Positions 22,812 to 61,731 of a stretch of DNA of 64,000 bases are shown here, one piece after another. Positions within the stretch are counted from its first letter, which is position 1. Each line of letters begins with the position of its first letter. The notes beneath the pieces were generated by a model that had not been told where the DNA came from, searched no databases, and was given only the letters and a program-made list of their open reading frames with translations. Made by a program: the position numbers and the translations under genes. The DNA is from Natronolimnobius baerhuensis. GTDB taxonomy: Archaea; Halobacteriota; Halobacteria; Halobacteriales; Natrialbaceae. Location of the stretch: contig NZ_MWPH01000002.1 of NCBI RefSeq assembly GCF_002177135.1, forward strand, positions 1,054,001 to 1,118,000. Reading direction: 5' to 3'.

Positions 22812-22906
22812 AGTTGTGTATTTCGTTGCGACCAGCACCACGACAGCACTTACACGTGCTCTCGCTGGATAGACTGGCGCGTACACATTCGTTCTAACTA
22901 ACGTGT

Positions 22907-22980: not shown

Positions 22981-23098
22981 AACGTGTCTCGGCGGCGAAT
23001 AGCAGCATTTCTACCAACAGTCCACTACTAAAAAGAACGTGTGTCAGAAAAGAAATACATACGCGATTCGCCAGTCACAAGCTGGAACGGATAGCCCG

Positions 23099-24028: not shown

Positions 24029-24120
24029 TGTTTGTGTAGGTTATTGCGTCCGATCACGCTGAATCGCTCAAATGAGCGTTCGCTGGACCGGAACGTGTGA
24101 AACCGGTCTCACCATCGTGT

Positions 24121-24194
24121 ATTAAATCTATTCGCCATTTCTGACACTACTTAACTCTACTTGCCGTTTGGCCTCCCACATAAATCTACTTGCC
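24121..24194 (-). promoter_or_regulatory. three-unit 16-bp motif array upstream of archaellin 2
   Basis: Units start at 24121, 24150 and 24179, again exactly 29 bases apart. In the gene's sense they are GGCGAATAGATTTAAT (proximal), GGCAAGTAGAGTTAAG and GGCAAGTAGATTTATG. The proximal unit lies 93 bases before the ATG. The distal unit is identical to the distal unit of archaellin 1. The bases between units 1 and 2 (TGTCAGAAAT, sense strand) are also shared with the archaellin 1 array. Confidence 0.7.
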
Positions 24195-24316
24195 GAACGG
24201 TAATAGCGTACGTATCGAGCGTTTTCAGACAGGAGTCTCAGACCACTCATTTACGCTAAGAATTCAGATATATTGTGGGTGACCGCAAGCGAAGCGGTCA
24301 CTAGTTGCGTCGGCTG

Positions 24317-25255: not shown

Positions 25256-25343
25256 GGTTGGTTGTGTCCAGCGAGCACTGTGGCCTCCCGACACGGGAGA
25301 CTAGCGAGTCGCTGAAACGTACAGTCTGTTGCAACTCACCAAT

Positions 25344-25415
25344 AATAAGTCTATTCGCCATTTTGACACTATTTAAGTGTTGTTGCCAACTCGAGAATTG
25401 TAATACGGAATTGCT
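25344..25415 (-). promoter_or_regulatory. two clear and one weak 16-bp motif upstream of archaellin 3
   Basis: Units at 25344 (sense GGCGAATAGACTTATT) and 25372 (GGCAACAACACTTAAA) are 28 bases apart. A third, weak candidate at 25400 has AGCAATTCCGTATTAC. The proximal unit is 89 bases before the ATG, as in the other arrays, and keeps the GGCGAA form. This is the most degenerate of the four arrays, so archaellin 3 may be less responsive or weaker. Confidence 0.55.
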
Positions 25416-25542
25416 ACGCGTCTCTCGAGTGTTTTCTAGCTGTATAGAAACTAAATATAAACGATGAAACTAACTGGAAATCTGATGGGTTCTAAAACAC
25501 AACGAAAAACCGAAAAACGACAGCCGGGTTATGCTCCGACGA

Positions 25543-26469
25543 TTAGAGCGTAACCGACGATTCTTCAGTGAGCGTCGATGGAGCCATCAGGAGCTCAACC
25601 GTCTGTGCGCCATCGGCGGTCGTGATCGTGAACTGAGCAGAGTCACCAGGCTCGAGATGCGTGAACTCGCCCTGACCGAGTGCGAGGTTGACTTCGAGCT
25701 GATTGTCAGACTGGAGGATTGCGTCAAAGTTCGGATCCTCCTCGTAGGAGGCTCCGTTCTCGAGTTCCGTAATCGAGAGGCTGTGGAGTTGGTCGACAGT
25801 ACCGCGCTCGGTGCGGTCGCCGACGTACTCGAAGGTTGCCGAACTCAGGTCAACTGGGTCGGAACCTGGGCCGAGCGAGACCATTAGCGAGGCTTCATCG
25901 ATGATGTAGTCGCCAGCGAGGTTTTCGCCACTGTACTCAACAGCATCAGAAGTAACAGTTAGTTGAAGGTCATCACCAGAACCACCATCACCGACACCGA
26001 TGTCAACCGACGTTGGATTATCATCGGTATACACGATATCAACTGTTTCTACTTGCCCCTCTAAGTCATCAGAATCAGATTCGACAACTTCAATCGTAAC
26101 TGTAGATCCATTTGCCACAGTCAAGGAACTTTCTGTGTCATCTAGGTTTATCTCTTCCTGGTATAGTGCACCTTGTACACTCGCATAAATTGTATCAACA
26201 TTGGTCTGAGCATCGTTGAAATTAATATCGACTTCATATTCCTGACCTAACTGAGCAACATCTCCAGTCGAGGAATCCACTTGAATCGCATTCGAGACCT
26301 GCGCTGTACTTTCCTGACCAGTTGCCTCTGCCTGGGACTGCAGAAGTCCTGCCGTGTTGAGTAATACACCTGCCGCAATCGCTGCGACGAGCACCATAGC
26401 GATGAACACGATGAGGGTACCGATTCCCACCTGACCGCGTTCCTCGTCATCTGTAAGTCGTTCGAACAT
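25543..26469 (-). CDS. arlA: long archaellin 4 (308 residues)
   Basis: The start is the ATG of [12 protein letters not shown], with the same PibD site before QVGIG. The central region (about 70-180) is divergent and AT-rich with the sequon NGS ([11 protein letters not shown]), and the C terminus is conserved ([10 protein letters not shown]). It is the upstream-most archaellin gene and has the longest promoter array. Its product may be the major filament protein, but expression level cannot be read from sequence. Confidence 0.95.
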
Positions 26470-26560
26470 TGTTGTAATTGTCTGCGACCGACACCCTTCC
26501 GACCACCACACCGTGGTACAGACGTTGCCGGCGCGTACACTCCGCTTCTAACTACCCGTT

Positions 26561-26695
26561 ATTAAACTTGTTCGCCAACCTGACACTATATAAGTCCACT
26601 TGCCGACCACCCATTACTGATAAAGCTACTTGCCGATATTCCGTCCCCCTACTTAGGTATTCTTGCCGTTTCTCCCCGCCCTAAGTTTCCTCTCC
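26561..26695 (-). promoter_or_regulatory. four to five 16-bp motifs upstream of archaellin 4
   Basis: Units start at 26561 (sense GGCGAACAAGTTTAAT), 26589 (GGCAAGTGGACTTATA), 26619 (GGCAAGTAGCTTTATC), 26652 (GGCAAGAATACCTAAG) and, degenerate, 26680 (GGAGAGGAAACTTAGG). Spacings are 28, 30, 33 and 28 bases. The proximal unit is 92 bases before the ATG. Together with 26696-26801, which holds the rightward promoter of the next gene, this accounts for the 332-base gap here. Confidence 0.65.
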
Positions 26696-26767
26696 GATTA
26701 GAATTTGGACACGAATCCCACAGATTGCTTACGAGAATCGCCAGCCGCCGCGGACCCAGTGGCCGAG

Positions 26768-26776
26768 ACACTTATC
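26768..26776 (+). promoter_or_regulatory. TATA-like box of the small zinc-protein gene
   Basis: The AT-containing stretch CACTTATCC sits about 26-34 bases before the ATG of the following gene, the spacing expected for a leaderless haloarchaeal transcript. No Shine-Dalgarno sequence is seen. Confidence 0.35.
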
Positions 26777-26801
26777 CCACTCCTCAGACCATATCTCCAG
26801 C

Positions 26802-26996
26802 ATGAACATTATCGATGGGGAGAAGGTAGAATGTGGGCGCTGTGAAGACGTGATCTCACTCGAGGATGCAAACGTCCTCGGGAAGGCCAACAATCGCTCC
26901 TATGCAAAGCCACTGTGTGATGGCTGTCTCAAGAAGGTTGGCGTTCCGAAGGGGTACGAACTCGAGCGTGACGTGAGCTATCTCATCGAAAATTAA
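26802..26996 (+). CDS. small zinc-binding protein (two CxxC pairs)
   Basis: The product is 64 residues with C11-x2-C14 and C39-x2-C42, a zinc-ribbon-like arrangement, and a conserved end (PKGYELERDVSYLIEN). Small zinc-finger proteins are common in haloarchaea and several affect motility or biofilm formation. It is divergent from archaellin 4 and shares the intergenic region with that gene's motif array. It is therefore a candidate for autoregulation or archaellin control, but DNA binding is not shown by the sequence. Confidence 0.75.
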   Translation: MNIIDGEKVECGRCEDVISLEDANVLGKANNRSYAKPLCDGCLKKVGVPKGYELERDVSYLIEN

Positions 26997-27084
26997 CGAC
27001 GGACAGTTCTCGAGACGCCGTTTTCGCACTGCTCGATCACGTCGCGGACGATGCTATGAGGGTGACCAACACTACTGACCAAGT

Positions 27085-27369
27085 TCAATCGTCACCGGGT
27101 TTGTACGCTCCGCTGCGGCGCTCAATCGTGTAAATATCCAAAATTTTCGCGTCGTGATCGCAGTTCGCACCGAGACGAAACTGTCCGATACGGAGTTGCG
27201 AGTGCGGGACACCAGTCAACGGCTCGAGGTAGTCGCTGGGATCACGCCATCGGTCAGTCACGATTTCGTCGAGTTTGTCCGTAATACGACTCTGTGCATG
27301 CTCCTCGAGACTATCGTACGTTCGCTTTGCTGGGCTTCAAAACTGCCATGTCCACTCCTCGTTACTCAT
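27085..27369 (-). pseudogene. RelE/ParE-type toxin with in-frame stop at codon 11
   Basis: Reading from an ATG that overlaps the end of the antitoxin gene gives MSNEEWTWQF, then TGA (27337-27339), then 83 further codons in the same frame (SPAKRTYDSLEEHAQ, DYLEPLTGVPHSQLRIGQFRLG, ERRSGAYK) to a normal TGA. This is a full-length RelE/ParE-type toxin in every other respect. A single substitution (for example TCA to TGA) explains the break. No ATG follows the stop close enough to restart. Either the toxin is dead, or the base is a sequencing error. Confidence 0.7.
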
Positions 27370-27637
27370 CGTCGGCCAGAATCTCTTCGCGCGAAAACGA
27401 CTCAGGTTCACCGGTCCGCCGTGCGTGCTCGACGGCTGCGATTTCCTTCCAGCTTTCACGGGTTAGATCCGGATGGCGAACGGCATCCCGGAGTGCCTCA
27501 CGAATAAATTCGCTCCGGCTGTTGTATCCCTCGTCCGCCCACGTTGCGTCAATATCCTCGAGAAATGCCTCCGTGAGACGGATGTTGATGTTCGTCTTTT
27601 CGGGTTCATCGCCACCGTTTGTATCTGTACTCGACAT
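27362..27637 (-). CDS. ribbon-helix-helix antitoxin (CopG/ParD type)
   Basis: The product is 91 residues. The ribbon-helix-helix part is at about 15-60 (TNINIRLTEAFLEDIDATWA, then SRSEFIREALRDAV), with an acidic C-terminal tail for toxin binding (EPESFSREEILADDE). It overlaps the start of the RelE-type toxin by eight bases, the classic antitoxin-first order. The toxin frame is interrupted, so this antitoxin may be an orphan. Palindromes over its start codon suggest that it represses itself. Confidence 0.8.
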   Translation of the reverse strand: MSSTDTNGGDEPEKTNINIRLTEAFLEDIDATWADEGYNSRSEFIREALRDAVRHPDLTRESWKEIAAVEHARRTGEPESFSREEILADDE

Positions 27638-27660
27638 ACATATGTATTACACCGTGGTGT
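27636..27660 (-). promoter_or_regulatory. palindromic operator at the antitoxin start
   Basis: A perfect 12-bp palindrome ATACATATGTAT covers the start codon region of the antitoxin gene and is followed two bases later by the inverted repeat ACACC-GT-GGTGT. Ribbon-helix-helix antitoxins bind such short palindromes near their promoter, so these are probable autoregulatory sites. Confidence 0.5.
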
Positions 27661-27719
27661 GCATAAACGTTCGTCTCACGCAAAACGATTCTCGAGCACT
27701 TTGCAGTCTCAAACCCAGC

Positions 27720-28583
27720 TCACTTGCTGTTCATCGCTTCGCTCGCGATATTCCGCCCGCGTGGTTTCAACGCGACTTCGCGTCGAACCCGCACTTCCTC
27801 TAAGACGTCCAACTCGATCAGGCGCTCGTAGATCTCCTCGACTTCGTCGGTATTGATGTCCAGAAACTCGGGGACTTCGAACGGCGAGACACCCGAATAG
27901 ATGGCCATCAGCACCTCCTCTTCCTTACCAGAGAGATCGATCTGCGAGGCGTTTTTCTCGGCCCCCCGATCCAGCACGGACTTCATGACGGCGCAGTTCT
28001 GTGAGCCCCCGGAGATGTACGTTTGGACACTCGAGCCGTCATCGGTGTGTTCGGCTTCGATGACGGGCCGCTCTTGCGAGAGAACGGTTCGTTCCTCGCT
28101 GGTGACGGTGCCGACGTCGTCGACTTCGATCTGGACAAACGAGCCGTTTTCGACGGCGAAGTTCGCAACGCCAGTATCGATTTTGACGCGGGCTTTGCTC
28201 CAGTCGGTGTCCTGGACGACGCCGCCTTTGACGGCAGGGTGTTTGAGCAGGACGATTTCGCCGTCGAGTAAGGCCTTCTGAATCTGGAGTTCGAACTCGT
28301 TGACCTCGGCCATCGAGATCAGGTGGACGTCTGCTCCGGAGTTAATGCTGATGTAGTCAGAGACTTTCGCAACGGTCTGGTTGACATCGTAGCGGCCCTT
28401 GATCGAGAGGATCTCCGAGAGCGGAATCGTCTGCTTGCCGTCGTTGCTCGCGATCACCAGTCGCTTGTTCGAGAGGACGATTCGGCCGTTCGTCCAGTTG
28501 GTATCCGACAGCTTCCGGCCATCGCGCAGTACCTGCGTGAACTTCCCCGTCACATCTGCGAGTTTCTGTTCGGACTTACTCAT
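27720..28583 (-). CDS. cheF: CheF (DUF439), second copy
   Basis: The product is 287 residues and homologous to the CheF at 9.8-10.7 kb. It has the same beta-rich N part (NGRIVLSNKRLVIASNDGK, TIPLSEILSIKG) and a C-terminal winged-helix region (KEEEVLMAIYSGVSPFEVPE). CheF proteins bind CheY and the archaellum ArlC/D/E ring. Its start overlaps the stop of the HEAT-repeat gene by four bases. In Halobacterium, two DUF439 proteins and one HEAT-repeat protein form exactly this connection between chemotaxis and motor, so both copies are probably functional. Confidence 0.9.
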   Translation of the reverse strand: MSKSEQKLADVTGKFTQVLRDGRKLSDTNWTNGRIVLSNKRLVIASNDGKQTIPLSEILSIKGRYDVNQTVAKVSDYISINSGADVHLISMAEVNEFELQIQKALLDGEIVLLKHPAVKGGVVQDTDWSKARVKIDTGVANFAVENGSFVQIEVDDVGTVTSEERTVLSQERPVIEAEHTDDGSSVQTYISGGSQNCAVMKSVLDRGAEKNASQIDLSGKEEEVLMAIYSGVSPFEVPEFLDINTDEVEEIYERLIELDVLEEVRVRREVALKPRGRNIASEAMNSK

Positions 28584-29851
28584 GCGAAGTCACCACTCAT
28601 CGCGCCTGCACCGCCCAGTTTCGACAGCGCGGAAAAGCCACGCTTTCGCAGTCGGTCACTCTCAGTTCGGTCGACGAACGACGAAATTCGGTTGCGAGAC
28701 TGTTCGCCCCCAATTTTCCCCAGCACGAACAGCGCCTTGACGCGCGTCTCCTCGGCGCGATGATCGTCTTCGATCAACTCGAGGAGTCGCTTCTCGAGGT
28801 CGTCCCCATCGAGCAACGAGAGGCTGGTCGCGGCGAATTTCGAGGTCATCTCGTCGTCGTCTGCGAGCGTCTCGATCAGTGCGTCTTGTGCGACAGATCG
28901 GTACTCTTCGTTTGCAATTCGGCCGAGCAGCCAGGCCGCATTCCGACGCTGTGCGGTTTCGGTACTCCGGTCAAGAATGTCGATCAGCGGCTCGATTGCC
29001 TCGCTGGCGTTTGCCTGCTCGAGTTCGCCGACGATCTTTTCGCGGACTTTGTGGCTCGCAGATGCCGGCGCTTCGGAGAGCAACTGTACGAGCGAGAACA
29101 TCGCGGTTCGTCGAACGGAGTCGGAGTCGTCTCGCAGCGCTTCGGCGAGGATTTCGACTGCACGGACGCTGCCGAGTCGACCGAGGGCGTCAACAGCGAT
29201 TCGTCGAACCGTTTCGTCCTCGTCGTTTGCGACGTCGATCAGTTCGCGGAGGGCGTTGTTCGTGCCGATATCCGCGAGTGCGTATGCAATCTCGATACGC
29301 ACGTCGTACTGATCCTCGTGGAGTCGCTGTGAGAGTGCGGGCACGGATTCGGGGGATTCGATTCGCCCGAGTGCGCGTGCAACCCGTTTTCGAACCCGTG
29401 GGTCCGGATCGGAGAGGCGCTCGACGAGGGCCTTCAAAACGTTGTCTTCGCCGATTCGCCCGAGACCGGTCGCTGCCGCCATCCGCAGTTCGGGACGGTC
29501 AGCATCGAGGCCGCGAGCAAGCAACTTCGCTTTCTTCCATTCGGCGATGTTGTCGATATCCTGTCCGGATACCTCGCCGATAAACTGCTCGAGAGCGTCC
29601 TGACCGAACTGATCGAGCGCGTCGATGGCGGCCGCACGGACCCCATCAGCCTCGTCTTCCTGTGAGACCTCGACGAGGACGTCGATGATATCCCCACGAG
29701 GATAGCCATAGTCCTCACCATCGCTGGTTTTGGACTCGAGGCTGCCAATGATTTCGGCCGCACGCTGGCGAATATCGTCGGTTGGACTCTCCTCGAGATA
29801 GGTGAGGAGTTGCTCGAAATCAGCGTTGCGCTCGAGTTCGAATAGCGTCAT
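28580..29851 (-). CDS. HEAT-repeat protein of the chemotaxis-archaellum link
   Basis: The product is 423 residues made of about ten HEAT/PBS-lyase-type repeats (for example DPDPRVRKRVARALGRIES and DEDETVRRIAVDALGRLGS), a helical solenoid for protein binding. There is no signal peptide. It is translationally coupled to cheF. The Halobacterium counterpart OE2401F was found in the same interaction network as its two DUF439 proteins, CheY and the archaellum accessory proteins. Its role is therefore probably as a scaffold between CheF and the ArlC/D/E ring. Confidence 0.87.
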   Translation of the reverse strand: MTLFELERNADFEQLLTYLEESPTDDIRQRAAEIIGSLESKTSDGEDYGYPRGDIIDVLVEVSQEDEADGVRAAAIDALDQFGQDALEQFIGEVSGQDIDNIAEWKKAKLLARGLDADRPELRMAAATGLGRIGEDNVLKALVERLSDPDPRVRKRVARALGRIESPESVPALSQRLHEDQYDVRIEIAYALADIGTNNALRELIDVANDEDETVRRIAVDALGRLGSVRAVEILAEALRDDSDSVRRTAMFSLVQLLSEAPASASHKVREKIVGELEQANASEAIEPLIDILDRSTETAQRRNAAWLLGRIANEEYRSVAQDALIETLADDDEMTSKFAATSLSLLDGDDLEKRLLELIEDDHRAEETRVKALFVLGKIGGEQSRNRISSFVDRTESDRLRKRGFSALSKLGGAGAMSGDFA

Positions 29852-40689: not shown

Positions 40690-42051
40690 CTACAGAAGGC
40701 CGACCGATCCGAGCACGAACAGCGCGAACAAAAGCGCCACGAGTACGCTCCCGGCCGCCAGCGCCACGTTCTCGCCGGCTTTCTCGTGAATCGCCATATC
40801 CTCGTACTCCTCGCGGAAGCGCTCGAGATTCGCTTCGTCGTAGAAGTACTTCGTCTTCAGCGCGAAGCGTTCGGTGACCGCACAGCCCGTACAGACCGGC
40901 TCGTTCTCGAGGCGTTCCGTCCGGATGTGGTCGTCGCAGTTGATGCTCCCGCAGTTGGCACAGTAGGTGTAACTGCCGTCGTCACTGGCGCAGTGGACGC
41001 ACTCGTGGAACTCGTTCGCCGTGGTCGCTCTCGAGGGGCCGGCGGCGTAGTAGGCGAACTCGTAGTCGTACTCACCGAGTGCGAGCTGTGAGCGGACGTG
41101 CGGGACGTAGACGGGGTCAATATCTCGAACAGTAACGTCCGAAACCTTCGGTGTGCATGTCTTCTCGTAGTCGACGTTGTTCCCACCCGTGTAGTGGACC
41201 GTCGTCGTGTGTGCCTGCCGGAGTCGCTCGACCGCCCACTCCTTGTACTCGGTCTCGGTCTGGCCGAATCGCTTGCGCTCGCACAGATCGAACCGGGTCT
41301 CGAGGTCGTGCTCCTCAAGTGCAATCCGTGCGCTCCGGCTCTCGGCACCGGTCACGAGTGACTGGACGGTCGCGCCGGGAACTCGAGGCAAGTCGCCATC
41401 GGCCAGCAACACGAGGTCGTCCGTTTCGTCTATGCTGTGGATCACGCCCACGGAGGTCTCGAACGTCGCGTTCGTGTCCGCCGAGACCGTGACAGTCGGC
41501 TCGAGGACGAGCGCCGTATCGGGCGTCGGAATCGTCGCCGGCTCGAGGTTTTCGACGGGTTGGACGGCTTCGAAAACGGGTGCGTTCCGGTCGGCGGTGG
41601 GGTGAGTCGGCCGGAGGGATTCGTCACAGAGGATTTCGATCCGGCCGTTGTAGAGGTCCATCCCGATCTCGTCGCCGATCTCGCGGAGGTCGGTGCCGTC
41701 AAGCAGTTCGATGCCGCCCGCTGTCGTGCCGCCAAGGTCGGCTGCGTACTCCCGCGCTGGGGCGGTAAAACGCCCGGTCGTGACGACCATGCCCCGCTTC
41801 GGGCCGTCGTAGTCGTAGGTCGCGACCGCCGAGTGGAGTTTCTGGACGACCGGTCTGCTGACCGTCTCGGTGTGTTTGCACTCGACGACGACGGCTCGGC
41901 GGCGGCCGTCGACGACTTCCTCCATCAGAATATCCCGTCCCTCGTCTGCGCCTCGAGCCGACTGGCGAACGTTCTCGTAGCCCAGATGCCGAAACACGTC
42001 CTCCATCAGATCCTCGAATTCGTACCCCGAAAGCTCGTCGAGCAGCGCCAT
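40690..42051 (-). CDS. Mrr-type nuclease with zinc ribbon and C-terminal membrane anchor
   Basis: The product is 453 residues. The N-terminal Mrr_cat domain (1 to about 120) has GYEFEDLMEDVF, the catalytic GRDILM and VVVECKH, that is the D-(E)xK pattern of PD-(D/E)XK nucleases. The middle (about 140-340) is beta-rich and unassigned. A zinc-ribbon pair follows (CVHCASDD, CANCGSINC, CTGC), and the C terminus has a hydrophobic segment (NVALAAGSVLVALLFALFVL). I chose the ATG at MALLDELSG over an upstream TTG. Mrr enzymes cut modified DNA; membrane tethering is unusual. No methylase is adjacent. Confidence 0.8.
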   Translation of the reverse strand: MALLDELSGYEFEDLMEDVFRHLGYENVRQSARGADEGRDILMEEVVDGRRRAVVVECKHTETVSRPVVQKLHSAVATYDYDGPKRGMVVTTGRFTAPAREYAADLGGTTAGGIELLDGTDLREIGDEIGMDLYNGRIEILCDESLRPTHPTADRNAPVFEAVQPVENLEPATIPTPDTALVLEPTVTVSADTNATFETSVGVIHSIDETDDLVLLADGDLPRVPGATVQSLVTGAESRSARIALEEHDLETRFDLCERKRFGQTETEYKEWAVERLRQAHTTTVHYTGGNNVDYEKTCTPKVSDVTVRDIDPVYVPHVRSQLALGEYDYEFAYYAAGPSRATTANEFHECVHCASDDGSYTYCANCGSINCDDHIRTERLENEPVCTGCAVTERFALKTKYFYDEANLERFREEYEDMAIHEKAGENVALAAGSVLVALLFALFVLGSVGLL

Positions 42052-42216
42052 TCGTTCACCGGAACCTTTCAATCACTCGTAAATAATGGTTCGGGCAGAC
42101 GAACGAGTGGCGACGGGCTCGAGTAGTATCGCTACGTAGCATCCCTGCCGCCAACCAAAACCGGCAGCCGTTGCCGCCCCTGGAACGTCTTTTGAGCCGG
42201 TCGTGGTCCGAGCGCT

Positions 42217-44924: not shown

Positions 44925-45102
44925 GGTTAGTCATCCACCACGAGACAGTAATACGGTCGGGAGGGGGCAAGACCGTCGCGGGCAACACAGCGTGAATTCG
45001 AACGTCGCGACGAGTACGTGCAATACACGTCTGGTGGTCCGACAGCATCAATGGTGGTCCGAGACAGCGTGACTGACACTCGAGTCGTGGCGGTCGCAGT
45101 CG

Positions 45103-46797
45103 TTACTCCTGAGTAGATGCGTTTGTATCCGACGCCACCGCAGCAGCGTCGCTATCGTCAGTCACCCGGTGAGGTTCCTCGAGAACCTCATCGAGAACGT
45201 CGAAGGCGAGTGCATCGAGTTCCGCAGCATAGTCGGTGCTCGCTGTGGGGCTCGTGACCGCCTCGGATCCGGACTCCATCGATTCGATCTCCTCGGCCGT
45301 CAGCACGGCTGGACGGTCGTCGAGCGCGTTCGTGCGCTCCGAAACGAGATTGGCAATCGACGGGTTGGTGGTATGAATCTCGAGGACCGCATCAACGTCG
45401 GCCGCTGCGTTTGCGTCCGTGTGCTCGGTTTCGGCCGTTTCCTCGGCGTCGGTGGAGGCTCTCGAGTCGGCCATCGCACTGTCAGCAGCGCTCGACTCAG
45501 CTGACGCCGACCCTGACTCGATTGGGTCCATTGTGAATCGGTCAGCTGACGCATCCGAATCAGTCGAATCGTCCAATCCGTCGGCTTCATCCTCGTCGTG
45601 GGCCATCGTGGACGGAGAATCATAGATGACAATTCCGTCCGTCGGATCGTCCCCGCGTAGCGGCTCATCTGCCGAGTCAGATGTCAACACCGGTGGTTCA
45701 AAGATGTAGCACAGGCCGTCGTGGGTGACGACATACTGACCCGACCGCTGATCGAACCTGACTGGTTCGCCACTGTCGATTCCAAGCGCTGTGAGCGCCG
45801 CGAGCGACTCGACGTACGCGTGCTCACCCTCGAGCGCTGACGGCGGCAGTTCAGCGGCCGTGATCATATCCTCGAACTCGGCCCGATCTGAGCGGTATGT
45901 AAGCCACTCGTTTTCATCTGGTGTCGGTTTTTGGACGCGCGAATCGCCAATCCAGGTGCCGACGGCGCCGAGCAGTCCGAGTGCCACGAAGACGAGTCCG
46001 AGCGTGGAGCGATTGTCCCCCTCAGAGGCGGGAACGGTGACCATCTCGGTGGTCTCGTCGGGTTCGTCGTACGACTCCGCATCGTCGATGTCGTACGCCG
46101 ATCCAGCGTCGGTGATCGGGATCTGGTACTGGTCGCTTGCCGTCCGGTGTTCGCCGTCGATCATCCCGGTCACCTCCCGAGTTACCTCGAGTCCGCGTTT
46201 GGTCTCGCCGGGACTCGCCCCAAGTTCCGACTCGATGTCGTCGATTCGGTCATCGAGCGCTGATACGTTGAGCGTAAACGGCGCCGCGACCAGTTCGCCG
46301 GGTTCGACGCCCGTTTCGCTGGTCGCAGCAAGGGACTCTCGCTCACTCCAGTAGACTGTCTCCTCGCTGGCGTCGACTGAGCGGTAGTAGAGATCAACCT
46401 CGAGAGTTACTTCAACGTCATCTCCCGTCTCCGCGTGATAGCCACCGACGAACTCACCCTCGAGTTCCGGTGTGATCGACGTGTAGTACAGCGGTTGGTC
46501 CTCGAGGACGTCCCCAGCATCGTAGAGCGATGTTGACTCCGCGACTGTCGCCTCGTGAGAGAATCCGCCTGTAGCCGTCCAGCGGTGCTCGAGTTGTTCA
46601 TCGGTTTCAGTCGCCGGAGCAGCGTAGGCGGTGTAACTCAGCCAGCCACCGAGGAGGATCACCAGCACAAAAGCGACGAGCAGGTGTCTCCGATACGCTA
46701 CAAACAACTTGCGGAGACGGAGTCGTCGCTCCAGTTGTTGCTCGTCGGGTCTCCGTTTGCCGGTCGAATCGCCGTCTGTCTCGAGTCTCGAGTTCAC
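45103..46797 (-). CDS. DUF5305-type membrane protein of a secretion module
   Basis: The product is 564 residues, starting at a GTG one base after the signal peptidase stop (an ATG further upstream would overlap that gene). A first helix (about 33-55, HLLVAFVLVILLGGWLSYTA) is followed by a large outer domain (about 60-260, with YYRSVDASEETVYWSERESL), a second helix (LGLVFVALGLLGAVGTW) and an acidic cytoplasmic tail. The outer domain matches DUF5305, a family next to SipW-like peptidases in archaea. It probably assists export or assembly of the secreted proteins nearby. Confidence 0.8.
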   Translation of the reverse strand: MNSRLETDGDSTGKRRPDEQQLERRLRLRKLFVAYRRHLLVAFVLVILLGGWLSYTAYAAPATETDEQLEHRWTATGGFSHEATVAESTSLYDAGDVLEDQPLYYTSITPELEGEFVGGYHAETGDDVEVTLEVDLYYRSVDASEETVYWSERESLAATSETGVEPGELVAAPFTLNVSALDDRIDDIESELGASPGETKRGLEVTREVTGMIDGEHRTASDQYQIPITDAGSAYDIDDAESYDEPDETTEMVTVPASEGDNRSTLGLVFVALGLLGAVGTWIGDSRVQKPTPDENEWLTYRSDRAEFEDMITAAELPPSALEGEHAYVESLAALTALGIDSGEPVRFDQRSGQYVVTHDGLCYIFEPPVLTSDSADEPLRGDDPTDGIVIYDSPSTMAHDEDEADGLDDSTDSDASADRFTMDPIESGSASAESSAADSAMADSRASTDAEETAETEHTDANAAADVDAVLEIHTTNPSIANLVSERTNALDDRPAVLTAEEIESMESGSEAVTSPTASTDYAAELDALAFDVLDEVLEEPHRVTDDSDAAAVASDTNASTQE

Positions 46798-46798
46798 G

Positions 46799-47971
46799 TT
46801 AGTACCACCTCCGAATAAGCGCCCGCAGTCGGCCGCAACCGTCGCCACCGCGCTGTCGAACAGCCTGTCGCTTCGCTCGCTGATCGCCCGTCCCCAACAG
46901 CAGTCGGCTCACGCCATAGAATCCGCCGCCGAGCAGTGAGAGAATCGTGAGCCAGGGAAGCCACGGATGAACGTCGTAGAGTGCGTCGATAACCGACACC
47001 GGGAGCACGTGCAGATAGCGATATTCAGTGACGTAGATCGGATAGTAGCCGGTCTCGTCCGGTGCCGTGACCGAGAGTGAGACAGTCTCGGTCGCCCGTG
47101 CGTCGACCGCCGTCGGGCCTGACTCAGCGCGTATCGGCTCACTGCCGGATTCGACGTAGGAGACGACGGGGACGTAGCCACCGTTGGGAATCGTATGCAC
47201 GATCTCATCGGTTGTCCCCTGTTCGATGATCTGTGGCTGCTCGGATTCGAACTCCGCGCTGATGAGATCGTACGACTGAGTGCCCGCGGGAGCCACCATC
47301 GCCGCCGTCGCTGCGACGACGACCAGCAACGCAAACCCGCCGGCCAGGAGTTGCGGATCGAGTGCATCATCGCCATCGTCCGCAGCCGACGACCGTCGAG
47401 TCGTCTGCCGGCGTTCTCGAACCGTCTCGAGGGCGTACAGACCACCCGAAAGGACGAGGAGGAGATACGCCAGCCCCGTCGACCCGAGAAACGCCTGCAC
47501 GCCGACTGTGGTTGCAAGCCAGGTCTGTCCACGCTCGAGCGTCTCGCCGAGCGTCATGATGGCGGTTCCGAGGTGTGGAATCGTCACGACACCATCGTTC
47601 ACTTGCCACGCGCTCGCGACGATTTGGCCGTCTTGGACGGGTGGCTCGTCGCTATCCTGATCAGTAAATGGGTTCGCGTCACCGCGTGTCACGTACCCCT
47701 GCTCGGTCTCCTCGACGATTCGGTGTGTGGTCAACCCCCCGCCCTCGAGTTCCTCGGCATCGAACACGACGACATCACCCGGTTCCGGGTCGCCAGTCAG
47801 GTCACTTGGCACCGCGACGAACCCATCACCCGTTTCGATAGTCGGTTCCATGCTTCCAGTTTCGACAAACCCGAGCAACACCGGCTGTCCGAGAAGCTGT
47901 CCGACGATCAACGCCCCGAGTACGACAAGGACAGTTCCCTGTACTCCCCACGCTATCCCCCGACGAATCAT
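46799..47971 (-). CDS. signal peptidase I, Sec11/SipW type, with C-terminal extension
   Basis: The product is 390 residues. An N-terminal helix (9-35) is followed by the S26B catalytic core: S40 in ETGSMEPTIETGD, H83 in TTHRIVEE and D98 in TRGDANPFTD. This is the Ser-His-Asp type of archaeal, ER and SipW peptidases. Three more helices and an outer domain follow, making it more than twice the usual length. It is transcribed with the DUF5305-type gene. The neighbouring secreted proteins are likely substrates. TATA-like AT-rich sequence lies 30-45 bases before the ATG. Confidence 0.88.
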   Translation of the reverse strand: MIRRGIAWGVQGTVLVVLGALIVGQLLGQPVLLGFVETGSMEPTIETGDGFVAVPSDLTGDPEPGDVVVFDAEELEGGGLTTHRIVEETEQGYVTRGDANPFTDQDSDEPPVQDGQIVASAWQVNDGVVTIPHLGTAIMTLGETLERGQTWLATTVGVQAFLGSTGLAYLLLVLSGGLYALETVRERRQTTRRSSAADDGDDALDPQLLAGGFALLVVVAATAAMVAPAGTQSYDLISAEFESEQPQIIEQGTTDEIVHTIPNGGYVPVVSYVESGSEPIRAESGPTAVDARATETVSLSVTAPDETGYYPIYVTEYRYLHVLPVSVIDALYDVHPWLPWLTILSLLGGGFYGVSRLLLGTGDQRAKRQAVRQRGGDGCGRLRALIRRWY

Positions 47972-48301
47972 TCTTTCCTAGCTAGCATATTATAATTGAA
48001 TTATTTGTATATTTGGGAAGAGGATATCTACTCGTTACTGAAATTTGTATGCTGGACTGTCGGATACAGCACAGCCCGCACGATTCGAGACGGCATGTCA
48101 GCGAGGCCTCTGGCGCGTTCCGATCACCACCACTCTCCTGTTCAGCCACCGACAACAGAGCGCTCGACGCTGAATTGGATACATAGTTGGTAGCAGAAAA
48201 GTCGGGTTATGGTGTCAGCGATGATGTACAAGGCCACACATTATACAGCGATACCGGAGACAGCGACAGTGAAATTCGGCGGTGAACCGACTCGCTCGAG
48301 G
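47972..48301. other. intergenic region before the signal peptidase gene
   Basis: These 330 bases have no convincing gene. The left 50 bases are very AT-rich and contain minus-strand TATA candidates (AAATATACAAAT near 48004-48015 and TTATAATATG nearer the gene) for the signal peptidase operon. The rest would be the 3' region of the secreted-protein genes; no clear terminator hairpin was seen. Confidence 0.4.
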
Positions 48302-49063
48302 TTACGAGTCACCCAGGTCCTGCAGTGCCTGATTGATCGTGTCCTCGGTCAGGTCTTGGCCAGTCAGATCGAACTCGATGTTTGCCATGTTTTCGTAGCT
48401 ACTGAGCGAGAGCGATCCACTCCACGCCGAGTCAGAGTCGTATCCATCAGCATCGCCCGTCACGACAAACTCGTCGTTGACCTCGACACTGCCGACCGCG
48501 CTGCTTGGAAGCGCCACCGCGACCAGACCGAACCGGAGCGAATCGCCCGGGCTCAGACCCCTGATCCCGATGAGCGAGATATCCTCCGGATACGGAATGC
48601 CAGGCCAGATGACTCCCCAGTCGATCTCGACGCCGAGTCGGTCCGCGTTCTGTGGAACCAGTAACACGGCGAGTGCCCCATCGAGGTTCGGCGGGAACAG
48701 ATCGGCGTCGATATCGCCGAACGCGAGTGGTGACACCGCGCCGTCGATCTCCTGTGTCCCCTGATTTCGGATCTGGAACACGTCGGCAATCGTCGTCACC
48801 GCGTTCGTGTTGATTCCCTCACCGACGAGGTTGTCGTTGCTCCCAGTGAGGTTGACCGCGAGCGCGTCGTTGTCCGTCGTGTCGACGTAGTCACCGTTAG
48901 GCCCGTCCCCGGGCTGAATGCCGAGGTACGCACTGGCGTCGTCGGCAACCGTCACACCGACGTCTCGCTCAGCCTCGACGCTGCTGAACGCGCCGGTTCC
49001 GAGCGCGAGACTCCCCCCACCGGCGAGCGCGCCAACACTTAGGACGAATTTGCGTCTATCCAT
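48302..49063 (-). CDS. secreted TasA/SipW-like substrate protein 1
   Basis: The product is 253 residues. The signal peptide has MDRRKFVLSVGALAGGGSLA and ends in GTGAFSSVEAERDVGV, the SipW-cognate/haloarchaeal pattern in which a 'GAFSSV' block follows the hydrophobic core. The mature part is beta-rich (DDASAYLGIQPGD; NAVTTIADVFQIRNQGTQEI). It is a paralogue of the next gene and shares the 'FQIRNQGTQE' / 'FEISNQGAQE' strand that TasA-type proteins use around their donor-strand groove. It may form a fibre or matrix component. Confidence 0.75.
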   Translation of the reverse strand: MDRRKFVLSVGALAGGGSLALGTGAFSSVEAERDVGVTVADDASAYLGIQPGDGPNGDYVDTTDNDALAVNLTGSNDNLVGEGINTNAVTTIADVFQIRNQGTQEIDGAVSPLAFGDIDADLFPPNLDGALAVLLVPQNADRLGVEIDWGVIWPGIPYPEDISLIGIRGLSPGDSLRFGLVAVALPSSAVGSVEVNDEFVVTGDADGYDSDSAWSGSLSLSSYENMANIEFDLTGQDLTEDTINQALQDLGDS

Positions 49064-49078
49064 TATCAGTCACTCCAG

Positions 49079-49618
49079 TTACGCGTCCGCGTTGAAGGTT
49101 ACCGTATCGAGCAACTCGTCGCCGTCGCCGACATCTGCATCTCTCGTGTCGATCTCGAGCGAGACCGTCGTGGTCTCCCCAGTACCGAGCGTCACACCGT
49201 CACCGCTGAGCGAATCGCCGTCGTAGGCTTCGTTCGCCGAGTAGAACGAGACGAGGTCGGCGTTGTCGCCGTCTTTGGTGAGAGAGACTGAAACCTCCTG
49301 TGCCCCCTGGTTCGAGATTTCGAACAGGTCGTCGATCTGCGTGACCGCGTTCGGGTTCACACCCTCACCCCCACCTGCAACATCGTCATTGCTCGAGCTG
49401 AGGTCAATCGTGAGCGTCTCATCAGTGCCGTCCTCGGTAACGTAATCCGAGTTCGCCCCACCGGCACCTCGGAGTCCCAGGTACGCACTCGAGTCGTCGG
49501 CAACCTCAACGTCGATATCTCGAGTCGCAGTCACGCTCGAGAATGCGCCGGTACCGACCGCAGCCGCAGTTCCAGATGCCAATGCTCCCAGTCCGATGAC
49601 GAATTTGCGTCGTTCCAT
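49079..49618 (-). CDS. secreted TasA/SipW-like substrate protein 2
   Basis: The product is 179 residues from the ATG of MERRKFVIGLGALASG; an upstream in-frame extension is unlikely. The signal ends in GTGAFSSVTATRDIDV, followed by DDSSAYLGLRG and a compact beta domain (TLTIDLSSSNDDVAG; FEISNQGAQEVSVSLTKDGD; TTTVSLEIDTRDAD). Size and fold pattern resemble TasA/CalY and the archaeal bundling pilin AbpA. It is the first gene of a two-gene unit 15 bases upstream of its paralogue, so it may be the major subunit. Confidence 0.78.
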   Translation of the reverse strand: MERRKFVIGLGALASGTAAAVGTGAFSSVTATRDIDVEVADDSSAYLGLRGAGGANSDYVTEDGTDETLTIDLSSSNDDVAGGGEGVNPNAVTQIDDLFEISNQGAQEVSVSLTKDGDNADLVSFYSANEAYDGDSLSGDGVTLGTGETTTVSLEIDTRDADVGDGDELLDTVTFNADA

Positions 49619-50124
49619 GATTGGATGCTCCGTATTGTCTTTCGCGAGCGACGACACGTCGATTCGCACGTCGTCTCGTCGCTGATCCCGTCGACGGGGA
49701 TCACAGTTCATCGGTGGGTTGTATGGGTTATTGTAATACAGACGTGGAGTTAATTCCAATAAGTATTGACCCAAACTCAACAGGAGACAGACCGAGTCGA
49801 GACACGAGTACACGAGCAGTTGACTCGACAGCAACTGGCAGGCGGATGGAAAATCAGAGGTACAGCCGGCATTGACTCGCGGTCAACCAGTGGATATCGA
49901 CACCCAAAACCAGTATCGAACCACTTGACTGGCGTCAATCCCGGCCAGAACCAGCATGGATTGCCGGTAGTAACCGATCAATACTGTGCTCGGATCTCTC
50001 TCCTCGGACGAGTATTTTTTACTCGAAAAGTAAATACTATTTTCCACCCCGGTCGTGACCTATTTCCCGGCAGGTAAGTATTTGTATACAAACTATTTTG
50101 GTGTCGGATTGAAATGTATTCTCT
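49619..50124. other. divergent regulatory region of the secretion module
   Basis: These 506 bases contain no convincing gene. Besides the inverted repeats listed separately, a minus-strand TATA candidate (TATTACAATA near 49728-49737) could serve the secreted-protein genes, and TTGTATACAAAC near 50083-50094 is a plus-strand candidate 30-40 bases before the regulator gene. AT content is highest in the 120 bases before that gene. Confidence 0.45.
49766..49938. promoter_or_regulatory. cluster of inverted TTGAC repeats
   Basis: Two perfect inverted repeats are TTGAC-TCGCG-GTCAA (49872-49886) and TTGAC-TGGC-GTCAA (49925-49938), 53 bases apart. A related CAGTTG-N9-CAACTG is at 49817-49837, and a single TTGAC followed by CTCAA is at 49766. 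They lie between the secreted-protein genes and the winged-helix regulator gene, so they are likely binding sites of that regulator or another dimeric factor. Confidence 0.55.
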
Positions 50125-50781
50125 ATGGGGGCAACTCATGCAGAGCCAACTGGGGGCACTGATACACCCGACCCGAATCAGGAGGGTAACACACTCTCGA
50201 GCGAGACGTTGACCGAAGACGAACTCTTCGAACTACTGTCTAACCGACGACGGCGGTATATCCTCCACGAACTCATGCGAGCGGATTGTCGCCTCGATAT
50301 TGGAAGTCTCTCGCAGGAAATTGCCGCCTGCGAAGACGAAGTCGACCTGCAGGAAGTTTCGAGCAGCGACCGGAAGCGAGTCTACACCGCGCTTCACCAG
50401 TCCCACCTCCCGAAGATGGACAAAGCAGGGGTCATCGACTTCGATCAGGATCGCGGGACGGTCGAACCCACGCCCGCACTCGAGAATATCGAGATTTACA
50501 TGGACGTTGTCCGAGGCCGTGAGATTCCCTGGAGTGACTACTATCTGGGCTTGACAGCCATCGCCGGCCTCGTGGTCGCAGCGTCGACGCTTGACATCGG
50601 GCCGTTCGCGGCGCTGCCATCGTCCGCCTGGGGCGTCTTCCTCATCGTCACGTTTGGCGTCTCCGCGATTGCTCATCGCTACTACGCCCGTCGCAACCGA
50701 CTCGGCATCGCCGGCGATCCCCCGGCATCCGACATCGAACTCGAGTACCACGAGTCGAACAGCCCCGGTCGAACCCAGTAA
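50125..50781 (+). CDS. membrane-bound winged-helix regulator
   Basis: The product is 218 residues. Residues about 28-115 are a winged helix of the haloarchaeal DUF7344 type (LTEDELFELLSNRRRRYILH; KRVYTALHQSHLPKMDKAGV; IDFDQDRGTVEPT). Two membrane helices follow (about 140-158 and 165-183) with a short charged tail. The DNA-binding part should face the cytoplasm, so it could sense a membrane or surface signal. It is divergent from the secreted-protein genes, with inverted repeats between, and probably controls the module. Confidence 0.82.
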   Translation: MGATHAEPTGGTDTPDPNQEGNTLSSETLTEDELFELLSNRRRRYILHELMRADCRLDIGSLSQEIAACEDEVDLQEVSSSDRKRVYTALHQSHLPKMDKAGVIDFDQDRGTVEPTPALENIEIYMDVVRGREIPWSDYYLGLTAIAGLVVAASTLDIGPFAALPSSAWGVFLIVTFGVSAIAHRYYARRNRLGIAGDPPASDIELEYHESNSPGRTQ

Positions 50782-50931
50782 AATGGGACACACTGCACAG
50801 GTCGCCCGTGCCGTCGGGTTCGGATACCCGTCCGGGACGTTCGGCCGCTCGAGTACAGTCGAACTCGAACAGGGGGTCGGGTTCGACTGCGCTCGAGACG
50901 AAACGAATGCGACCACCACCCACAGAAACGT

Positions 50932-52065
50932 ATGAAACAAACGAGACGAGCCGCACTGGCACTGTTTGCGGGATCGAGTGGACTGCTTGCCATCGATACG
51001 CTTGGCTACTCGAGTGGCCAACTCGAGCGAGAGGTCACGGTTGACGTGACCGGCGATGAAGCCGCGTATCTTGGCCTGGTCGACGACGATGCGACTGCGG
51101 ACGGCATCGAGACAAACGGCGTGCTCTTCGAGGACACCGCCAATACCGGACGATATCCACCCGTCTCGTTCGCTGTCGCCAATCAGGTCACCGAACAGAT
51201 CGCCGTGACACTCACACTCACAGACGACCGACTCAGGTTCGTGAGCCTGGATGCAGCGGGTGCAATCGACACCGATTACGGGTCGGAATTTACAGAATCT
51301 GCGGTATCACCCGGTGACACGCTCTCGCTTGCGGTCGACCAGAGAGTAGCGGAGCAGCAGTTAACAGATCTCGAGTCGCTCACGACCACACTGACAGTCC
51401 AAGCCGAAGGAGCAACAACGCAGATCGATGCGAAGCGGTCGTTGACAGTCATCTCAGACGTCTGTGCGGTCCTTGATCTGTGTCCCCAGCTTGGTGGGCT
51501 CGTTGTTGTTAGAAAACGAGCAGGCGAGACGGACCCGACCCTGGCTATCGAGTGGATCGACTGCGCTGACGGCCAGTCGGTGACACTTTTCCAGACCTCG
51601 ACCACCCCGTTCCCGACGTTCCACGTCTCGTTCCCGGCAGTGACCGATGTCGACAGCAAGCCTAATTCCAACTCCGACGCCGCTTCGGCCCAGTCGGACA
51701 ACGCGAGTCGCACACTACTCGAGGATGCCGAGGTGTACACCGCGTCCGGAGTTGACGTTACGCACAGCCCAAACGCACCCGCAGGGTCGAACGGGGAGCC
51801 ACGACCCAAAAACGCTGGGTCGAAGCCAGCACACGCCTCACAGTCGGACGACACAGTCCAGCCGCCATCACACTCTCGAGCAGCGAATCGATCACGTGCG
51901 GTATCCGAGACAGACGGAGACACCAGGGCTGCAGCCACTTCGGCTGGCGCGTCACCGGGTTTCAGTATCGAACTTGAATCCGATAGTTCCTCGAGGTCGG
52001 AGTCACAGTCAGTAGAAGTGATCGAGGTGCCGGTCGACCCCGATGGCGCAGTCGGCACCCGTTGA
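50932..52065 (+). CDS. secreted TasA/SipW-like protein 3 with long disordered tail
   Basis: The product is 377 residues. The N terminus (KQTRRAALALFAGSSGLLA, then TLGYSSGQLEREVTVDVTGD and EAAYLGLV) aligns with the two secreted paralogues to the left. Residues 40-240 form a beta-rich domain, and residues about 240-377 are Ser/Asp/Pro-rich and probably disordered. The RR in the signal suggests Tat export. It lies 150 bases downstream of the winged-helix gene. It could be a minor or cell-wall-linked component of the same fibre. Confidence 0.7.
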   Translation: MKQTRRAALALFAGSSGLLAIDTLGYSSGQLEREVTVDVTGDEAAYLGLVDDDATADGIETNGVLFEDTANTGRYPPVSFAVANQVTEQIAVTLTLTDDRLRFVSLDAAGAIDTDYGSEFTESAVSPGDTLSLAVDQRVAEQQLTDLESLTTTLTVQAEGATTQIDAKRSLTVISDVCAVLDLCPQLGGLVVVRKRAGETDPTLAIEWIDCADGQSVTLFQTSTTPFPTFHVSFPAVTDVDSKPNSNSDAASAQSDNASRTLLEDAEVYTASGVDVTHSPNAPAGSNGEPRPKNAGSKPAHASQSDDTVQPPSHSRAANRSRAVSETDGDTRAAATSAGASPGFSIELESDSSSRSESQSVEVIEVPVDPDGAVGTR

Positions 52066-52144
52066 GCAGGCCATCAACCCACTCTATTTCCGTCTGAAGT
52101 CGACCTCGAAGCAGTTGCGCGCTCGGACTGAGCCGTGTTCTTTC

Positions 52145-52224
52145 ATACTGCCGGACAAAACGAGTCACAGATTTCCGACCGAACGGGTGGTCGAAAATCG
52201 TTACTGACTTTTGTCCGACAGTAT
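52145..52224. repeat. palindromic MITE-like element, copy 1 (80 bp)
   Basis: Terminal inverted repeats are ATACTGCCGGACAAAA and TTTTGTCCGACAGTAT. Inside is a second imperfect hairpin (TTTCCGACC ... GGTCGAAA) around GAACGGGT. It lies between two convergent genes, 79 bases after the stop of one. A related copy is at 61607-61679. The structure suggests a non-autonomous transposon remnant that now may act as a bidirectional terminator. Confidence 0.6.
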
Positions 52225-53138
52225 CAGACCGAGTCGATAATCTCGTCTGCGAACTGCGAGAGCGCCGCTTCGCTATCGTCGTTGCCGAGTCCGACGATGA
52301 CGTGATCGACGCCGTAGTCTGCGAGTCGGCGGAAGTAGTCTCGGAACCACTCCACGCCGGCGCGATAGCCGAGATGGAGCTGTTCCGGCTGTGCCTCGGG
52401 ATCGTCGTCCAGTTCGACGCGAACCGCCATCGCGTAGGGCTTTGCGCCCGCTTTTTCGCGCCACTCGAAGAGGTAGTCCTCGAGCGTCCGCTCCGGAAGG
52501 TGATAGAAGAGCCAGCCGTCGCCGTGCTCGGCGATCCACTCGCGGGACTGGCGAGCGTTCCCCGTCGGCAGCATCGGAATCGTCTCCGTCGTCGGCTCTG
52601 GCACGACCGAGAGGTCGCCGTTTAGCGAGCCCCACTCGCCCTCGAGTGCGGGCGCATCCTCTCGCCAAAGCGTTCGAATCGCCTCGAAGCGTTCCCGAAA
52701 GGCATCGCCGCGAGTGGCTTTCTCGAGGCCGAAGGCAGGAAACTCGGGGTCCCGGTCGCCCGAGGCCACGCCGAGGACGAGTCGCCCGTCGGAGAGTTGG
52801 TCGACGGTCGCCGCCGACTTCGTGACGTGGATCGGATGCCGGAGCGTGAGGACGATGCTCGCTGTACCGAGTGCGATCTCGTCCGTGTGCGCGGCGACGT
52901 GAGAGAGCCACGGCCACGTATCGAACGTCTGGCCCGCATCGCCGAATTTCGGCCAGTAGGTCGGCACGTCTCGAGCCCACAGGCCATCGAAGCCGACCGC
53001 CTCGGCGTGTTTCGCGAGGTGGAGTTCGTCGCTGATATCGGGCGTGGAGCGATTCGTCCCCGTCAGCGGAAAGCTCGCGCCGAAGGTCATCTCCTCGGTC
53101 TCGAAGAGTAGCCGGTAGCCAGGGTTTTCGTGAGACAT
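52224..53138 (-). CDS. LLM-class oxidoreductase
   Basis: The product is 304 residues from the ATG of MSHENPGY, a luciferase-like TIM barrel (GFDGLWARDVPTYWPKFGD; LSDGRLVLGVASGDRDPEFP; PMLPTGNARQSREWIAEHGD). It is closer to the FMN-type group with 'RD...' than to the F420 enzyme at 44 kb, so it is not a recent duplicate. The substrate is unknown. The stop codon abuts the MITE-like element. Confidence 0.87.
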   Translation of the reverse strand: MSHENPGYRLLFETEEMTFGASFPLTGTNRSTPDISDELHLAKHAEAVGFDGLWARDVPTYWPKFGDAGQTFDTWPWLSHVAAHTDEIALGTASIVLTLRHPIHVTKSAATVDQLSDGRLVLGVASGDRDPEFPAFGLEKATRGDAFRERFEAIRTLWREDAPALEGEWGSLNGDLSVVPEPTTETIPMLPTGNARQSREWIAEHGDGWLFYHLPERTLEDYLFEWREKAGAKPYAMAVRVELDDDPEAQPEQLHLGYRAGVEWFRDYFRRLADYGVDHVIVGLGNDDSEAALSQFADEIIDSV

Positions 53139-60380: not shown

Positions 60381-61607
60381 ATGCCGCGGTTCGAGCGGAA
60401 GCAGAATATCTTCCGAAACAAGGATGCGCTGGGGGAGTCGTACCAACCGGAACGGATCGAAGAACGGGACGAAGAGATCGAGGCGTACATGGACGCGCTT
60501 CAACCGATCATCGACGGCTGGGAGCCGAACAACGTCTTTCTCTACGGCAACACCGGTGTCGGAAAGACCGCCGTCACCGACTACCTGCTTGATGTGCTCC
60601 AGGAAGACGCCACCGAGTACGACGACATCGATCTCTCCGTCCTTAGCGTCAACTGCAAAACCCTGAACTCCTCCTATCAGGTCGCAATCGAACTCGTCAA
60701 CACGCTTCGCCCCGACGGCGCAGAGATCAGCACGACCGGCTACCCCCAACAGACTGTTTTCAAAAAACTCTACAGCGAACTCGAGGCCCTGGGCGGAACG
60801 GTTGTCATCGTCCTCGACGAAATCGACTCAATCGGTGACCGTGACGCACTCCTGTACGAACTCCCCCGCGCTCGCTCGAACGGCTACCTCGAGTCGGCAA
60901 AAGTCGGGCTCATCGGAATCAGTAACGACTTCAAATTCCGCGAACAACTCGATCCGCGGGTCCAAGATACGCTCTGTGAACGCGAACTGCAGTTTCCACC
61001 GTACGAAGCCTCCGAACTCACGAACATCCTCGAGTCGCGGGCAACCGTCGCAATCGCTGACGGCAGTTACGACAGCGGCGTCCTGAATCTCTGTGCAGCA
61101 CTCGCCGCTCGAGACAGCGGGAGTGCGCGACAGGCCCTCGACTTGCTGCGGCTCGCCGGCGAGGTCGCAGAGAACAACGACGAGGAGGTCATCGCGGAGA
61201 CACACGTCGATCAGGCGCGCTCGAAACTCGAGCAAGAACGCGTCGAAGAGGGCATGCGCGAGTTGACGACGCACGGGCGACTCGCCTTGCTCGCCGTCGT
61301 CTCGAAAGCCGCCAAAGAGTCGACACCCTGCCGAACACGGGAACTGTATCAGGAGTACGAGACGCTCTGTAAATCCTCGGGAACGGACTCGCTCGCCCAG
61401 CGGTCGGTTCATAATCACCTCTCGGATCTCCGGATGCTCGGCATCCTCTCGGCGAAAGAGAATCGCAGCGGCTCTCGCGGGAACTACTACAGCTACGAAC
61501 TCGACGTGCCGTTCTCGAGTGCGGTCGACGCGATGGCCGACGTGCTCTATCTCGACGACGAAATCGAGACGATCCGAGAAATCGCCCGGATGAACGGCGT
61601 GGCTTGA
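60381..61607 (+). CDS. orc1/cdc6: Orc1/Cdc6 replication initiator
   Basis: The product is 408 residues. AAA+ features are Walker A GNTGVGKT (56-63), Walker B VVIVLDEID (141-149) and sensor 1 IGISNDFKFRE. Arginine-rich sensor 2 (RDSGSARQALDLLRLA) and a C-terminal winged helix (QRSVHNHLSDLRMLGILSAK) follow. Orc1/Cdc6 binds origin boxes and loads the MCM helicase. Seven matching 20-bp boxes flank this gene, so it probably serves its own origin. Haloarchaea carry many orc paralogues with different boxes. Confidence 0.96.
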   Translation: MPRFERKQNIFRNKDALGESYQPERIEERDEEIEAYMDALQPIIDGWEPNNVFLYGNTGVGKTAVTDYLLDVLQEDATEYDDIDLSVLSVNCKTLNSSYQVAIELVNTLRPDGAEISTTGYPQQTVFKKLYSELEALGGTVVIVLDEIDSIGDRDALLYELPRARSNGYLESAKVGLIGISNDFKFREQLDPRVQDTLCERELQFPPYEASELTNILESRATVAIADGSYDSGVLNLCAALAARDSGSARQALDLLRLAGEVAENNDEEVIAETHVDQARSKLEQERVEEGMRELTTHGRLALLAVVSKAAKESTPCRTRELYQEYETLCKSSGTDSLAQRSVHNHLSDLRMLGILSAKENRSGSRGNYYSYELDVPFSSAVDAMADVLYLDDEIETIREIARMNGVA

Positions 61608-61679
61608 TACTGCCGGACAGTGGTAGAGTTTCGACCAAACGGGGGTCGAAACTCTGTACTGACTGTTGTCCAGTAGTAT
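61607..61679. repeat. palindromic MITE-like element, copy 2 (73 bp)
   Basis: The ends are ATACTGCCGGACA and TGTCCAGTAGTAT. The inner hairpin is a perfect 11-bp stem GAGTTTCGACC / GGTCGAAACTC around AAACGGG. The first base overlaps the stop codon of orc1/cdc6. It is related to the copy at 52145-52224, with the same ends and the same inner GACC...GGTC. It may now serve as a terminator between the initiator gene and the origin boxes. Confidence 0.6.
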
Positions 61680-61731
61680 GAGAACGCGAGTACTCTCACT
61701 CGAGACATCTCACAGTCCGTCACGTATCACC

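Follow-up and report, generated by a model that had tools for sequence, protein, structure and literature searches.

We analyzed a 64,000-nucleotide stretch of the Natronolimnobius baerhuensis genome (contig NZ_MWPH01000002.1, forward-strand positions 1,054,001 to 1,118,000; hereafter the window), in which a cluster of six genes very probably constitutes a Tat-fimbria (tafi)-type locus that builds a surface fiber. The host genome is 3.9 Mb in size and 99.5% complete, and its closest relatives are Natrialbaceae. On the minus strand, the order of transcription is a twin-arginine translocation (Tat)-type pilin-like protein of 179 residues (49079–49618), which is the first gene after a divergent promoter, a second such protein of 253 residues (48302–49063), an S26B (Sec11-type) signal peptidase of 390 residues (46799–47971), and a DUF5305 protein (45103–46797). 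The plus strand carries a divergent DUF7344 winged-helix gene (50125–50781; Pfam PF24035, 99 bits), whose product has two predicted membrane helices at residues 141–159 and 161–179, and a gene for a TafC-like protein of 377 residues (50932–52065). These six genes had been picked out by an original prediction made from the sequence alone, and each of them is present at its place and belongs to a real family in Pfam or NCBIfam. The DUF5305 protein (PF17231, 180 bits, E = 5e-53) has, according to hydropathy analysis, an outer domain of approximately 215 residues between two membrane helices, as well as a long acidic cytoplasmic tail, and its gene adjoins the peptidase gene in nearly all relatives. 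The DUF5305 reading frame is open to 46848 and overlaps the peptidase gene, and its start is likely the GTG at 46797, one base past the peptidase stop.

The two small secreted proteins were 55% identical over their first 128 residues, and both contained GTGAFSSV. The proposal of two paralogous secreted proteins with GAFSSV signals and a related third protein was confirmed. Read from the sequence, the signals themselves turned out to be of the twin-arginine type, which the original prediction had missed: the small proteins begin with MDRRKFV and MERRKFV, and the TafC-like protein begins with MKQTRR. R3 and R4 were invariant across the aligned relatives of both pilin-like proteins (33 and 37 rows), as were G24, A25, F26, and R33, and a strand-like pattern followed the expected cut. 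Because the secreted proteins carry twin-arginine signals, their export is predicted to be by Tat rather than by the Sec route of TasA.

In the NCBIfam comparison, the TafE family matched the 179-residue and 253-residue proteins with 63.7 and 63.1 bits, respectively (cut-off 155), whereas TafA reached 44.1 bits for the small secreted proteins (cut-off 190). TafC matched the 377-residue protein with 31.4 bits (cut-off 410; E = 1e-7 over residues 2–174); the N-terminal half of this protein, approximately 180 residues, was conserved in the alignment, and the remainder was a low-complexity Ser/Asp-rich tail. The 179-residue protein also matched Pfam DUF1102 (34.6 bits). In the PDB sequence search, both small proteins matched 9p0a ("Pilin"), with E = 1.6e-9 for the 179-residue protein and E = 1.9e-12 for the 253-residue protein, and no other entry was matched by the former at E ≤ 1 or by the latter at E ≤ 10. 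The title of 9p0a given by Foldseek is "Structure of Natrinema sp. J7-2 Tafi pilus" (released 2025-07-23). An open reading frame (ORF) in genome G091 that matches this solved pilin with 100% identity over 109 residues was used as a yardstick, and it also remained below the cut-offs (TafE, 77.1 of 155; TafA, 52.9 of 190). Since the solved J7-2 Tafi pilin itself falls short, the NCBIfam Taf cut-offs delimit only proteins closely related to those of the Haloarcula type, and tafi extends beyond them. The window pilins are placed inside the broad tafi family and outside the TafA/TafC/TafE equivalogs.

The predicted models were compared with known structures by Foldseek. With the 253-residue model, 9p0a ranked first (E = 1.4e-4), AbpA of Pyrobaculum calidifontis (PDB 7ueg) second (E = 6.7e-4, probability 1.00, template modeling [TM] score 0.32–0.42), and the Sulfolobus thread (PDB 7pnb) third (E = 0.015). 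With the 179-residue model, AbpA ranked third (E = 2.2e-3) and 9p0a fifth, and FimA entries ranked high. Thus, in a fold check that had been set beforehand as a refuting test of the original prediction, AbpA-like and Tafi structures were among the top matches of both models. The 253-residue protein additionally has a 48-residue acidic C-terminal tail (48302–48450) without a counterpart in its orthologues of approximately 199–212 residues, and this tail reflects either the loss of a stop codon or a genuine extension.

These matches could also be read in another way, which we consider unlikely: the pilin-like pair might be TafE-like adapters, minor subunits, or surface-coat proteins that do not polymerize, and the peptidase and DUF5305 protein might merely mature them. 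Both small proteins match TafE, the named adapter, better than TafA, neither reaches the TafA cut-off, and the odd tail of the 253-residue protein favors an adapter or a coat protein. However, the solved Tafi pilin also scores higher on TafE than on TafA (77.1 versus 52.9 bits), so the TafE label cannot separate an adapter from a pilin. Moreover, the genome has only two TafE-family proteins, and if both were adapters, the locus would maintain a dedicated peptidase and yet lack a main subunit.

The peptidase scored above the TIGR02228 cut-off (53.7 versus 51.85), and its catalytic residues S40, H83, and D98 were invariant in 14 aligned relatives. Its outer C-terminal domain (approximately residues 225–345), for which the Pfam search yielded no matching model, contained E316, R318, Y319, L323, P324, H335, and P336 as invariant residues in the same alignment. 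The extra helices and outer domain that had been pointed out in the peptidase are indeed present; they are not special to this copy but are the rule among its relatives. It is highly improbable that the locus is a genuine archaeal SipW/TasA system producing Sec-exported TasA-like fibers. Such a system would fit an S26B peptidase with a weak match to NCBIfam SipW (36.6 bits, E = 3e-9), a signal ending in GTGAFSS, which resembles the SipW-dependent type, and a fold related to AbpA, which is itself structurally related to TasA. Nevertheless, the SipW match was confined to the catalytic core (residues 29–137) and lay far under the cut-off of 190, R3 and R4 are invariant in the aligned relatives, and TasA was absent among the 50 best fold matches listed, although the related AbpA was present. 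We therefore rejected a Sec/SipW/TasA type, including the TasA-like character suggested by the original prediction, on account of the twin-arginine signals, the ranking of the folds, and the restriction of the SipW match to the core. The prediction's idea of a dedicated-peptidase module for an AbpA-related donor-strand fiber was retained on the basis of the Foldseek results and the gene neighborhood.

The neighborhood was surveyed in two sets of loci. The first comprised 40 regions from many genera picked by DUF5305 (one by TafE), making 41 loci with the window; when the window was counted, the peptidase was found in 40 of the 41, Taf-like proteins in 38, and the winged helix in 33. The second comprised 65 long loci with record names picked by the peptidase, and Taf-like proteins occurred in all 65, DUF5305 in 63, and the winged helix in 60, so the expected co-occurrence of the secreted proteins with this peptidase was borne out and exceeds chance. 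Among 242 haloarchaeal genomes, the TafE family was present in 182 and DUF5305 in 197; 180 genomes had both, 2 had the TafE family only, 17 had DUF5305 only, and 43 had neither. The gene order of the window was also found in Natribaculum breve, Halopiger djelfimassiliensis, Haloterrigena salina, and others. TafA and TafC exceeded their cut-offs in loci L065 and L087, TafE did so in L065 and L066, and L087 had a sub-cut-off TafF match. In these loci, labeled the Haloarcula type after the NCBIfam family names, the accompanying genes encode a peptidase, a DUF5305 protein, and a winged helix of the same kinds as in the window. The gene for the solved J7-2 pilin lies in locus L193 of G091 within the same kind of neighborhood; it adjoins a gene for a CARDB-domain protein (394 residues, Sec-type start, hydrophobic end), and a 902-residue protein is encoded nearby.

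This linkage also bears on the notion, which we regard as barely credible, that the peptidase is part of a second signal-peptidase unit of general use, serving many envelope proteins, and that the pilin genes are mere neighbors. The cluster peptidase is the only S26 match above the family cut-off in the genome, and the other archaeal-type S26 match is weak. However, that weak match (a 326-residue frame at C3:230871) may be the general enzyme, and Taf-like proteins stand beside the peptidase in every one of the long loci. In addition, neither TafE nor DUF5305 genes are present in the congeneric genome G104, where this position is an empty site, so the cluster's copy of the peptidase cannot be indispensable to the genus. 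A type IV pilus or archaellum was rejected, as no ATPase was found among the six genes of the cluster (Pfam, NCBIfam) and the archaellins (PF01917) lie elsewhere in the window.

The cluster belongs with the Tat-fimbriae (tafi) of haloarchaea reported in 2025 (Galeva et al., iScience 2025, 28:111793, as cited in PMC12687288) and hence is of an already described kind. For such a tafi-type locus, we propose that the pilins would fold in the cytoplasm, exit via Tat, and remain tethered by the signal helix, after which the cluster's own peptidase would cleave behind V-x-A (A31, between GAFSSVEA and ER). Donor-strand exchange would then insert the newly exposed N-terminal strand (R-x-V-x-V-x-V, followed by D42) into the next subunit, and cleavage would in this way feed growth at the membrane. 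The proposed export and cleavage steps draw on sequence motifs and conserved linkage, and the proposed donor-strand step draws on kinship with 9p0a, AbpA, and the threads. The DUF5305 protein, whose gene abuts the peptidase gene, might be a platform or anchor that holds the growing fiber, the TafC-like protein might be a tip or cap subunit, and the membrane-bound DUF7344 winged helix might regulate the divergent promoter through the conserved element GTATTACAATA. If this scheme is true, the polymerization of folded, Tat-exported subunits after cleavage by their own peptidase would be an unusual route of fiber building. As DUF5305, DUF7344, and the DUF1102-type protein are tied to fimbria loci across most haloarchaea, their roles are testable.

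Several points weigh against a fiber-building tafi locus. None of the window proteins passes an NCBIfam Taf cut-off, although the solved Tafi pilin fails likewise. A search of the window genome for a TafF homologue gave no match, and it was silent in control genomes too. The models are of moderate quality, with predicted local distance difference test (pLDDT) values of 70.5 and 69.2 and TM-scores to 9p0a of 0.41–0.52; with such moderate pLDDT values and TM-scores of 0.3–0.5, the fold comparison depends on its concordance with the sequence matches. The roles assigned to the DUF5305, winged-helix, and TafC-like proteins are guesses from gene position, and fiber formation at the window locus is inferred.

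A tree of 121 peptidases showed two branches, with a Shimodaira–Hasegawa-like approximate likelihood ratio test (SH-aLRT) value of 97 on both sides of the midpoint root; it was built by a quick method, and the second branch was over-sampled because the fetch query was window-like. Loci of the Haloarcula type and the locus of the J7-2 pilin fell in the first branch (23 rows), and the window fell in the second (98 rows). G091 holds both branches, one in the solved-pilin locus L193 and the other in the window-type locus L194. The window genome has one DUF5305 and two TafE-family proteins and, given the single DUF5305, apparently has the second branch alone. Trees of DUF5305 and the winged helix mostly, though not strictly, tracked this division; the branch labels changed 4 and 5 times on them, respectively, compared with 21 and 18 times after shuffling. 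We give roughly even chances to the view that there are two old paralogous classes of haloarchaeal Tat-fimbriae: class I would comprise the characterized fibers, those of the Haloarcula type (TafA/C/E/F) and of J7-2, and class II, including the window and the only class in its genome, would have a distinct peptidase lineage, gene set, promoter element, and fiber and would possibly share a cell with class I in species such as the J7-2 relative. The second branch is widespread and appears to be unstudied, and the new elements here may be this branch and its promoter element. The window is a natural single-class test case, since it has one such cluster with a sharply delimited promoter element and since the corresponding site is empty in a congener.

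Compared with the known tafi and 9p0a, the window has homologous twin-arginine pilins with the same predicted fold and the same adjoining peptidase, DUF5305, and winged-helix genes. It differs in that its peptidase is on a branch apart from both the Haloarcula-type and J7-2 pilin loci, in that it has two tandem TafE-like pilins, its own promoter element, and no TafF found, and in that its TafC-like protein has a low-complexity tail in the place of an additional domain of the Haloarcula-type protein. AbpA has a similar predicted fold (probability 0.99–1.00) and belongs to the donor-strand fiber type, but the PDB sequence search detected no sequence similarity to it. The Sulfolobus acidocaldarius 0406 thread, which combines signal peptidase I processing with donor-strand complementation (PMC9715654), resembles the predicted fold of the 253-residue protein; its subunit is Sec-exported, unlike those of the window, and a cluster peptidase is not among the thread features described in the portion of that report drawn on here. 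The TasA/TapA/SipW system of Bacillus subtilis likewise places a dedicated S26B peptidase beside the proteins of a donor-strand fiber. It uses Sec in place of Tat, and the window peptidase is approximately twice as long as its counterpart and has an outer domain.

The divergent region between the pilin and winged-helix genes spans 506 base pairs (bp). Conservation in the aligned loci revealed a putative promoter/operator element, GTATTACAATA (49729–49739, minus strand), which was invariant in 13 aligned species and present in 24 fetched loci, all of them Natrialbaceae where named. Only 0.08 matches would be expected in the window even allowing one mismatch, and a longer form of the element had one exact copy genome-wide. 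In the peptidase tree, the loci bearing GTATTACAATA fell inside one well-supported set. The leader of the pilin operon contains an inverted repeat, TGATCCCCGTCGACGGGATCA (49683–49703, minus strand), conserved in approximately 10 Natrialbaceae. A structured RNA was considered, but the covariation of the conserved repeat was no better than that of shuffles (167 of 500 were as high), so TGATCCCCGTCGACGGGATCA may equally be a hairpin or a DNA operator.

The entire cluster lies in a cassette of 7.25 kb (44980–52233). In G104, from the same genus, the two luciferase-like monooxygenase genes that flank the cluster are direct neighbors, leaving an empty site; blastn matched this genome at 87% up to 44979 and at 91% from 52234 on, with 18 bp in between in G104. 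The right-hand edge of the cassette carries an approximately 80-bp element resembling a miniature inverted-repeat transposable element (MITE), with terminal inverted repeats TTTTGTCCGRCAGTAT (52145–52224). Approximately five further paired copies of the TTTTGTCCGRCAGTAT pattern (76–110 bp) were found elsewhere in the genome, compared with one match for the reversed pattern. A second element of this type is located in the window at 61605–61681, and a degenerate end of the same type occurs at 45036–45050, close to the left edge of the cassette. A virus origin was rejected, since no PHROGs match and no peptidase relatives in viral contigs were found. Elsewhere in the window, a region of lower G+C content (approximately 0.51; 22000–28600) encodes archaellum and chemotaxis functions, including three archaellins (PF01917) and CheF (PF04283), and the gene at 40690–42072 encodes a 460-residue protein that combines an Mrr-type restriction domain (PF04471) with a hydrophobic C-terminus.

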